39,316 nt of DNA from Archaeoglobales archaeon (GTDB lineage: Archaea > Halobacteriota > Archaeoglobi > Archaeoglobales > Archaeoglobaceae), in contig JASFYJ010000010.1 of NCBI GenBank assembly GCA_030055525.1, forward strand, positions 1 to 39,316, read 5' to 3'. This document shows positions 36,835-39,316 of this stretch, piece after piece. Under the pieces are notes generated by a model, which ran no database searches, was not told the origin of the DNA, and saw only the letters and a list, made by a program, of their open reading frames with translations. The first letter of the stretch is position 1. Each line of letters begins with the position of its first letter. Both the position numbers and the translations under genes were made by a program.

Positions 36835-37573
36835 AAATAGGGTTGTTTTAGCTCCGATGGCTGGATTAAACAATGCAGAGTTTTGCAACAAGCAAAAAGC
36901 TGCTGCTTTGGTCATTCTTGGAGGATTCAATGCTGACGAGGAAACTTTAAAAGCTGCAAAAAAGGTTACTAAGAGGGGTAGAAAAGAGTTCATCTTCGAT
37001 GACCCGATTGATGGGATCGAAGAGGAGATAAAAAATCTTAAAAAGAGTATATTTGCTGTTAATGTGCGTTCAGCGACAATTGAAGGGTACTTAGAAGCTG
37101 CAAGAGTTGTAGCAGATTATAAAGGAATCTTTGAAATTAACGCTCATTGCAGACAGCCAGAATTTCTAGAAATAGGGTGTGGAGAAGCCCTGCTTTACGA
37201 CAAAAAAAGATTAGTAAATATAGTAGAAAAAGTGTCAGAAATAACGATAACCTCGGTGAAGATCAGAGCAGGACATAAAATAGATTATGAAGAGATTTGT
37301 AAAAGTATTTTTAATGCGGGAGCAAAAATTTTACACGTAGATGCGATGATTCCCAATGCTGGATGTGATCTAATTTTAATACAAAAACTTTCCAGATTTG
37401 GATTTTTGATTGGAAACAACTCTTTTGTCGATGCAAAAAGCGGTGAAAATTTTATAAAGGCAGGAGCAAAGATGGTCTCAGCTGCCAGAGCTGTTTTATC
37501 AAAGGAAAAATTTTTCGAGGAGGTTCTTAGGGAGAGTGCTTTGCTTTCTCAACCTGTTGAGCTGAAATTATGA
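36815..37573 (+). CDS. Archaeal nifR3-like TIM-barrel protein
   Basis: A 252-residue TIM-barrel protein related to dihydrouridine synthases (the archaeal nifR3-related group). Blocks include VVLAPMAGLNNAEF at the N-terminus, FEINAHCRQPEFLEIGCGEALL in the middle (trimmed) and KIRAGHKIDYEEI. The APMAG and NAHC-like positions match FMN-binding barrels, with a cysteine near the usual catalytic one. It is shorter than true Dus enzymes, and its role is not known. I chose ATG 36815 inside the dapF end; an earlier in-frame start at 36794 would overlap further. Converges with pyrD by 25 bases. Confidence 0.8.
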   Translation: MSSIRFENRVVLAPMAGLNNAEFCNKQKAAALVILGGFNADEETLKAAKKVTKRGRKEFIFDDPIDGIEEEIKNLKKSIFAVNVRSATIEGYLEAARVVADYKGIFEINAHCRQPEFLEIGCGEALLYDKKRLVNIVEKVSEITITSVKIRAGHKIDYEEICKSIFNAGAKILHVDAMIPNAGCDLILIQKLSRFGFLIGNNSFVDAKSGENFIKAGAKMVSAARAVLSKEKFFEEVLRESALLSQPVELKL

Positions 37574-38445
37574 GCTCTACCGATCAGGTCTTGAATAGTA
37601 GTATTTTCGATCCTTAAAAAAGCATTTAAGCTCTCTTGAATGCTATACATTACTTTTTTGCTTAAAAAGAGAGCGGAGCCCAGTTCTACACAAGTAGCTC
37701 CAGCAAGGATAAATTCCAAAACATCTTCAAAGTTCGTGATTCCTCCACACCCTATTATGGGAACTTCGATGTTTTTGTAGAGTTCATATACACACTTCAA
37801 AGCTATTGGCTTTATCGCCGGCCCACTGACTCCACCGCTAACGTTATTTAAAATGGGCCTCTTGGAAATTATATCTATTTTCATGCCTGGCAAGGTATTA
37901 GTTATCACTATTCCATCGACGCCGGATTTTTCAAGTTCTTTTGCAAGTTCTAGATATCTGTGCATTGCAGAGATCTTCGCAAAAACTGGTTTTTCAGTTA
38001 CCTCTTTCATTCTTCTGATCACATTTTTAGCAAGCTCTAAATCACTTCCAAGATCGAATCCAGCACCTTTAACATGAGGACAGCTCATGTTTACTTCAAA
38101 AGCATCAACAAAATCAAAAATTTGTGTTAAATTTGCAAATTCATCTGCTGAATAACCATACAAGCTAACAAAAAGGGCTGCATTTTTATTGTATTTTTTG
38201 AGTTCTTTTGCAAAATCCTCTGCTGATGGGGATGCCAATCCAACTGCATTCAATAGTCCGCATTTCCAATTAATTACCGTTGGATTCTTGTAACCCTCTC
38301 TTTTTTTAATTCCAACAGATTTGGTAACAACAGCGCCAGCATATTCGGATAAGACATTTAACGTAGAGATCGAACTTCCAAGTATTCCACTTGCAAGTAT
38401 CAAAGGATTTTTTAGTTTTAGACCGGCCAACTCGACTTCGAGCAT
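37549..38445 (-). CDS. pyrD: Dihydroorotate dehydrogenase (class 1B type)
   Basis: Oxidises dihydroorotate to orotate in pyrimidine synthesis with FMN. The 298-residue barrel has LKNPLILASGILG, the active-site cysteine in EVNMSCPHVKGAG, and the phosphate loop GGVSGPAIKP and GCGGITNFEDVLEF. The class 1B type normally pairs with PyrK; no pyrK is in the window. The ATG is about 25 bases from TATA-like sequence at 38466-38478. Confidence 0.95.
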   Translation of the reverse strand: MLEVELAGLKLKNPLILASGILGSSISTLNVLSEYAGAVVTKSVGIKKREGYKNPTVINWKCGLLNAVGLASPSAEDFAKELKKYNKNAALFVSLYGYSADEFANLTQIFDFVDAFEVNMSCPHVKGAGFDLGSDLELAKNVIRRMKEVTEKPVFAKISAMHRYLELAKELEKSGVDGIVITNTLPGMKIDIISKRPILNNVSGGVSGPAIKPIALKCVYELYKNIEVPIIGCGGITNFEDVLEFILAGATCVELGSALFLSKKVMYSIQESLNAFLRIENTTIQDLIGRAHNFSSTG

Positions 38446-38465: not shown

Positions 38466-38478
38466 CTATAAAAAATTA
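38466..38478 (-). promoter_or_regulatory. Probable pyrD TATA box
   Basis: On the minus strand the stretch reads as TAATTTTTTATAG, centred about 25 bases before the pyrD ATG at 38445. The same T-run could also end a leftward transcript of the GC-rich segment next to it. Confidence 0.45.
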
Positions 38479-38479
38479 A

Positions 38480-38536
38480 TCAGGGTGGAGCCGGACGGTA
38501 TCACAGCGTCGCACTGCGAAGCTCCCCGTCCCGTAG
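38480..38536 (-). ncRNA. Candidate structured RNA (GC-rich, strand uncertain)
   Basis: This segment is far more GC-rich than its AT-rich flanks and full of complementary arms. GGACGG (38493-38498) pairs with CCGTCC (38526-38531), enclosing a hairpin with AGC-TCGC-ACT-GCGA-GCT arms (38505-38523). A second pair, GGAGC (38487-38491) with GCTCC (38521-38525), interleaves with the first and would give a pseudoknot or alternative fold. I prefer the minus strand: TTAAATTTTTC-like promoter sequence at about 38556-38567 lies about 25 bases upstream, and a T-run at 38471-38476 follows as a terminator. I recognise no RNA family; it is not a tRNA. Confidence 0.45.
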
Positions 38537-39195
38537 ATAGTAATAGCATTTGAAGAAAAATTTAACTGTTGCCTTTTCGTACACAACTATAGCTAAAAAG
38601 AGACAAAAACGTCTACAGCCTTTTTCTAAGCCCTTAACCATGTAAGTAACGATCTCTATTTTATAAACTCAGACGTCTTTTTCATTCGAAGATCTTAGAA
38701 AAATTAAAGAAGAGAAATTCGTACTAGTTGTTGATGAGTCAAAAATTGGGAAAAAGAAATGAAGGTGATTGCAGAAATTAGTAGAATTCTGAAGAGTGGA
38801 AAACATATAGACCCAGAGGTTGCAACAGAAGATTACATTGGCTTTTCAAAAATACCAAAAATGCTTAGAAAAACTTTTAGATTGCGTTAAGAGAGCGATA
38901 ACTCTTCTTGGTGATACTCGATTTTATGAATAAGTTTTTCAGCTATATGTTCATTCTGTTGGAGATATACTTTGCATATCAACGGAAAGTTACATTAATA
39001 GAGGTTGACTCATATAATGCCGGCAATTGCGAGAGAAATTTTCAAAAATATAAAGTGGCAAAATAGTGCTACTAAGATTATAAATAAAATTAAAATATAC
39101 AATTGTTTTTAATTAACTACAGATAGGTAATTAAGTATAGATACTTTTTATTTTAGACATCTACCCGCAGACACATTCATTTTAGGAGGGATTTT
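38537..39195. other. Gene-poor stretch with decayed fragments
   Basis: About 660 bases with no intact conserved gene. One short piece (about 38683-38760, +) reads KFVLVVDESKIGKK, similar to a block of ribose-5-phosphate isomerase A, but stops close on both sides. Another run (about 38860-38930, +) reads CLEKLLDCVKRAITLLGD in one frame and looks like a broken helical protein. From 39110 on it is the leader of the next gene, with TAATTA/TAATTA inverted elements at about 39113-39136 and a TATA-like ACTTTTTATTTT. Confidence 0.5.
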
Positions 39196-39316
39196 ATGAA
39201 TCAAGAGTTTGTAAACGCCCTCGCAGACCTGAATGAAGAGAAAACAATAGAACTAACGAAAAAGAGGCTAGAGAAAGAGAGCCCGTTCGAGATACTTAAC
39301 GACATTAGAAAAGCAA
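39196..39316 (+). CDS. Methyltransferase cognate corrinoid protein, partial
   Basis: The first 40 codons of a protein resembling MtbC/MttC/MtmC-type corrinoid proteins: the N-terminal helical cap with NALADLNEEKTIELTKKRL and then ESPFEILNDIRK. The rest, including the DxHxxG cobalamin-binding motif, lies outside the window. AGGAGGG lies six bases before the ATG, a strong ribosome binding site, so this mRNA has a leader, unlike many neighbours. Such proteins carry methyl groups from methylamines or related compounds to coenzyme M or tetrahydromethanopterin. The exact substrate is unknown. Confidence 0.72.
   Translation, partial: MNQEFVNALADLNEEKTIELTKKRLEKESPFEILNDIRKA

Follow-up and report, generated by a model that had tools for sequence, protein, structure and literature searches.

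Genomic context of the GC-rich element

The stretch of DNA analysed here, which we call the window, is one whole contig of 39,316 bases from a genome of 1.56 Mb in 16 contigs. It contains a GC-rich element flanked by pyrD on one side and by a 700-nt stretch without long open reading frames on the other (Table 1). At 38480-38539 the GC content is 63%, and in the neighbouring 60-nt intervals it ranges from about 28 to 43%. An earlier note on this DNA had described a GC-rich, self-complementary segment with two interleaved helices and an inner hairpin, and this description was borne out: all three pairings are present on the minus strand (GGACGG/CCGUCC, GGAGC/GGCUCC and UUCGC-AGU-GCGA). The promoter-like element and the downstream T-run that the same note placed on this strand are also found there (TTAAATTTTT at 38565-38556 and T6 at 38475-38470), and the T6 run extends into the TATA region of pyrD, in agreement with its statement that the segment runs into the pyrD promoter. 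Predicted folding energy did not single out the segment (z = -0.26 on the plus strand and -0.63 on the minus strand), and 76 and 51 of 200 shuffles, respectively, were as stable. Here GC content appears to have pointed to an RNA where folding energy gave no sign of one. A tRNA search of the window returned no tRNA.

About 550 nt at 38640-39190 lack long open reading frames and read like decayed genes; one fragment in this region, LVVDESKIGKK, is reminiscent of ribose-5-phosphate isomerase, and another, MKVIAEISRILKSGKHIDPEVATEDYIGFSKIPKMLRKTFRLR, had no Pfam match. A 13-nt inverted repeat (GACAAAAACGTCT / AGACGTCTTTTTC) lies at 38602-38614 and 38671-38683, its halves 56 nt apart, and these sequences near the RNA gene are possibly remnants of insertion-sequence ends. 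At 39197-39316 a gene begins that has a weak match to a B12-binding (corrinoid protein) domain (PF02607, E 5e-4) and is cut by the contig end. On the other side, SKYB32, a MAG of the same genus, shares the gene order dapF - TIM-barrel protein - pyrD. The gene upstream of pyrD differs between the two genomes, which places the window's element at a junction that has been rearranged.

Table 1. Positions of the predicted RNA, its parts and the adjoining gene in the window
Feature	Positions	Strand	Basis
Conserved core: predicted kink-turn hairpin and 10-nt tail	38483..38531	-	80% identical to SKYB32 homolog; 10 differences, compensatory or unpaired
Basal stem P2, 5' strand, GGACGG (homolog GGGCGA)	38526..38531	-	Two fully compensatory pairs
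Basal stem P2, 3' strand, CCGUCC (homolog UCGCCC)	38493..38498	-	Pairs with GGACGG
Predicted kink-turn, non-bulged strand GGAGC: G-U partner, GA, C-stem start	38521..38525	-	GGAG invariant in both sequences
Predicted kink-turn, bulged strand GC-UGU-GA-U: three-nucleotide bulge, then GA	38500..38507	-	Homolog AC-UAU-GA-U; C-stem pair C-G to U-A
Apical hairpin UCGC-AGU-GCGA, U-C mismatch below	38509..38519	-	Stem invariant, loop varies
Tail GGCUCCACCC	38483..38492	-	Complementary to own-genome 16S rRNA 894-903 and 23S rRNA 1393-1402
U6 run, possible terminator	38470..38475	-	Sequence; homolog has UUUUU directly after tail
TTAAATTTTT, weak promoter-like element, centre about 29 nt upstream of P2	38556..38565	-	Sequence only
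pyrD (dihydroorotate dehydrogenase), next gene downstream	37549..38445	-	PF01180, E 4e-65; start at 38445

A predicted kink-turn RNA with one homolog

The most likely product of the GC-rich segment is a small structured RNA read from the minus strand, whose conserved part comprises the core at 38483-38531 and perhaps a few flanking bases more. From 5' to 3' this RNA would consist of a 6-bp stem, a G-U pair, a kink-turn (GGA/UGA), a short stem with a UCGC-NNN-GCGA hairpin, the tail GGCUCCACCC and a U-rich end. We favoured the minus strand because it carries the kink-turn consensus, the invariant G-U pair and the rRNA-complementary tail. In the published kink-turn consensus, tandem G-A pairs flank a bulge of three nucleotides (PMC7991803, PMC5539422), and by this consensus both the window sequence (G-GA-GC / GC-UGU-GA-U) and its homolog (G-GA-GU / AC-UAU-GA-U) are predicted to form one. 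The TTAAATTTTT box could serve as the promoter of the RNA, which would weakly suggest a 5' end close to the hairpin; given the AT-rich context, such a box is likely to occur by chance.

A BLAST search among 40 relatives recovered one true homolog (E 2e-6), in SKYB32 (G002). Its neighbours are a small zinc-ribbon gene and, in convergent orientation, argF; this locus is unrelated to that of the window, and the two copies have no conserved protein-coding neighbour. The cores differ at 10 positions over 49 nt. Six of these differences combine into three fully compensatory exchanges, two in the basal stem (A-U to G-C, G-C to A-U) and one in the stem next to the kink-turn (C-G to U-A), with no one-sided change and no broken pair; the remaining four fall in the loop, in the kink-turn bulge and at a single bulged base. 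Random placement of 10 changes gave an equally good outcome in 0.04% of trials, for a structure that was fixed beforehand but drawn with both sequences in view. Sliding the pairing partner yielded 0-1 compensatory exchanges, compared with three in the real alignment, and a pair-shuffle control, which is a weak one with only two sequences, did as well in 71 of 500 cases. Since two homologs are known, the covariation support amounts to one pairwise comparison. Proteins encoded in the two genomes have diverged (67% identity for pyrD and 76% for argF, a 24-33% amino-acid difference) and the RNA flanks, including the 5' flank, gave no convincing alignment, which argues that the core is under selection.

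The conserved pairing that the earlier note had proposed to look for in relatives is thus present in one homolog of the same genus, and its proposal of a new structured RNA gains support. Rfam had no match to the window, either at the gathering score or with the E threshold relaxed to 10, and only chance-level matches to the SKYB32 homolog. We consider it likely that the element is an RNA, and probably a small RNA of a new kind.

Further searches found no additional homolog in the other eight genomes of the genus, the remaining family members (a total of 55 genomes) or 393 genomes of the phylum, nor in viral contigs. In a GTDB-wide pattern scan SKYB32 was the sole true match; the other 18 matches were bacterial, and one of them forms the basal stem, by chance. 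A family-wide search for TGAT...GGCTCCACC likewise found the hairpin formed only by the two known copies. Covariance-model matches in three genomes (G022, G009 and G021) and in more distant ones were rejected as lying inside open frames or being plain inverted repeats. A 22-nt exact match to the RNA region in a remote member of the phylum (L003:1501-1522) was taken as chance; it falls in an open reading frame that, judged by eye, encodes a MarR-like regulator.

The interleaved helices are mutually exclusive

The earlier note had also suggested that the two interleaved helices form a pseudoknot or a switch between two folds. The helix of fold A (GGACGG at 38531-38526 with CCGUCC at 38498-38493) overlaps the second helix (GGAGC/GGCUCC), and the two are separated by 0 nt on both the 5' and the 3' strand sides. 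With both connecting loops of 0 nt, the helices are mutually exclusive and a pseudoknot is sterically excluded. At 37 C the window RNA is predicted to populate fold A at 23% and fold B at 73%, and the SKYB32 homolog to populate fold A at 94%. Because the homolog favours fold A, in which each of the three compensatory exchanges lies, a switch is not supported as a conserved feature.

The tail is complementary to ribosomal RNA

The tail is invariant in both copies and is their longest invariant stretch. Its complement, GGGTGGAGCC, occurs three times in the 1.56-Mb genome: in this RNA, in 16S rRNA (894-903, followed by UG-CGGUUUAAUU) and in 23S rRNA (1393-1402, followed by G-UC-GGUGACG). The core recurs in 23S rRNA at 2263, with a 9-nt match in the window species and an 11-nt Watson-Crick match in SKYB32, where the 10-mer is found only in the RNA and two 23S sites (the 16S gene is incomplete on the examined rRNA contig stretch). 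These two far-apart 23S sites share the sequence GUGGAGCCGUYGRUGA (at 1393 and 2263 in the window species, L042, and at 1350 and 2232 in SKYB32, L043), so one tail could address both. The tail:rRNA duplex was calculated at -21 to -24 kcal/mol at 37 C and about -10.5 to -12 at 75 C.

At all rRNA sites the base just 3' of the duplex is a U, as the H/ACA register would have it: U904 in 16S rRNA (10 bp), and U1404 (11 bp) and U2272 in 23S rRNA with one basal P2 pair open. Taken by itself, the rRNA match is only moderately improbable, as 7-8% of whole-RNA dinucleotide shuffles reach 11 nt and 2-7% of shuffled tails reach an rRNA match of 10-11 nt. The invariance of the tail, its placement right after the stem and the U that follows add weight beyond what these shuffle figures express. 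Matches of 9 nt outside rRNA all lie inside open reading frames, none of them common to both genomes, and a search for targets among 30 tRNA genes gave nothing convincing.

Possible functions of the RNA

We propose that a stand-alone minus-strand gene yields an RNA of roughly 50-75 nt, consisting of a kink-turn hairpin and a single-stranded tail. L7Ae would bind the kink-turn, the tail would base-pair with rRNA or its precursor, and the RNA would serve either as an H/ACA-like guide with one arm or as a chaperone of rRNA. A kink-turn RNA that binds rRNA through its tail, in either capacity, is the best single reading that the sequences suggest, at somewhat less than even confidence and with a tentative mechanism. 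The narrower version of it, a reduced guide with a predicted L7Ae-bound hairpin and a single 3' tail directed at 16S U904 and the two near-identical 23S sites, we regard as unlikely. Such a one-armed form would do without the 5' guide, the lower stem and the ACA box, and would be known from two species of one Archaeoglobaceae genus. Cbf5 (TIGR00425) is encoded in 10 of 10 genomes of the genus (E 2e-163 in the window's own genome), and the machinery for pseudouridylation therefore exists. If rRNA is bound via the single tail, the RNA would show that an H/ACA guide can work with very few of its parts; alternatively, it would reveal that Archaeoglobales have kink-turn RNAs acting as rRNA chaperones.

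The evidence for the structure far outweighs that for rRNA binding, and the tail match, at a p of about 0.02-0.08, might be fortuitous. The hairpin would then be a protein platform (for L7Ae, for example) and the tail would have another task. Against such a coincidence, the tail is the very stretch that is conserved at greatest length, and its 10-mer complement is otherwise confined to rRNA in both genomes; we give the chance match about one part in four of our belief. In that case the element would still be an undescribed conserved small RNA of a poorly studied genus.

Trans-acting antisense sRNAs usually consist of a hairpin, a free tail and a U-run, and this RNA has all three. The complement of its tail, GGGUGGAG, includes GGUG and GGAG, so that CUCCACC could pair with a Shine-Dalgarno-like sequence of an mRNA and block translation. 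Neither genome has a 9-nt match at a translation start, and with the non-rRNA matches unshared and inside reading frames we find this reading improbable.

Several features recall a canonical H/ACA guide RNA, which has two guide arms, a lower stem and an ACA box. The upper stem would contain the kink-turn, in which GGAG and NNNGAU are invariant in both homologs and the C-stem pair is compensated. Six base pairs, the G-U pair and two G-A pairs make nine layers from the pocket to the second G-A pair, or ten with the bulged base; archaeal H/ACA RNAs have about 10 stacked layers over this distance, with a range of 8-13 (PMC4652768). The 3' guide is in register, directly 5' of 16S U904. The homolog has AUA 15 nt after the stem, where the window copy has AAU, and the window copy is without an ANA box at 14-16 nt. 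At 16S U904 the 5' guide forms no more than 2 bp in the window copy and 0 bp in the homolog, and a bipartite target search of 16S and 23S rRNA found no U that fits both arms. A lower stem of 7-9 bp is not above shuffled flanks (p 0.13 and 0.32), and a long stem that would enclose the element (GCUAUUACUAU/AUAGUAUGUAGC), considered and rejected, is not above chance and is absent from the other copy. The Rfam scan for H/ACA or other families that the earlier note had recommended matched no family, as described above. Since neither a 5' guide arm nor a lower stem was found, we did not file the RNA as H/ACA. It resembles an H/ACA-like guide in which several defining features fail, and a full H/ACA guide seems to us quite improbable. 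A box C/D guide was also rejected: the RNA has RUGAU only instead of the box C sequence RUGAUGA, and the box D sequence CUGA follows the tail in the window copy where the homolog has CUUU.

The position of the element, on the same strand as pyrD and 38 nt upstream of its start, raises the question of a cis-acting leader, attenuator or switch, and the earlier note had suggested an influence on this gene. The U-run overlaps the pyrD TATA region, and two folds compete in the window RNA. The homolog, which is convergent to argF, does not favour the second of them, and none of the nine other genomes of the genus, SKYB32 included, has the element at its pyrD locus. A conserved role of this kind is very unlikely, and we do not consider pyrD part of the function of the RNA. 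The overlap of the U-run with the TATA region does make local transcriptional interference possible, as an incidental effect at the window locus alone and without conserved function.

Hardly credible is a short coding sequence, a 27-codon minus-strand frame from an ATG near 38549 to a TAG near 38466 that is open in the window and has a matching open stretch in the homolog (GRGxSQxD..I..GSTL), as the homolog has a stop and no ATG, GTG or TTG ahead of the conserved part, and third positions hold 4 of the 10 differences, about the number expected by chance, while all 10 fit the RNA structure.

Comparison with known RNAs

The preferred reading, a kink-turn RNA whose tail would bind rRNA, has its closest parallels among the RNAs described in PMC4652768. 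These also have a kink-turn hairpin without a stable lower stem and a 3' single-stranded, rRNA-complementary segment right after the stem, and in some of them the ACA/ANA box is degenerate or absent. They also have a 5' guide segment, whereas the 5' flank here is neither conserved nor target-complementary, and the hairpin here, unlike theirs, may begin almost at the 5' end. The Archaeoglobus fulgidus H/ACA sRNAs Af4, Af46 and Af190 (cited in PMC4652768) come from the same organism family and likewise combine a kink-turn with rRNA targeting, but they fit the canonical fold families and have two guide arms, a lower stem and an ACA box. Their reported targets (S1004, S1167, L2601 and L2639; cited in PMC4652768) include none that resembles the tail-complementary sites by position, in numberings that are not aligned.

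Methanosarcina mazei sRNA162, reported to target mRNAs (PMC3510493), is similar in joining a structured RNA to a free base-pairing region; here, in contrast, no mRNA target of 9 nt or more lies near a start codon. The stem, three-nucleotide bulge and tandem G-A pairs also recall the archaeal kink-turn RNAs bound by L7Ae, among them unassigned sRNAs from the S. acidocaldarius RIP-seq (PMC5539422). L7Ae binding of the RNA described here is a prediction, and its likeness to those RNAs is one of build.
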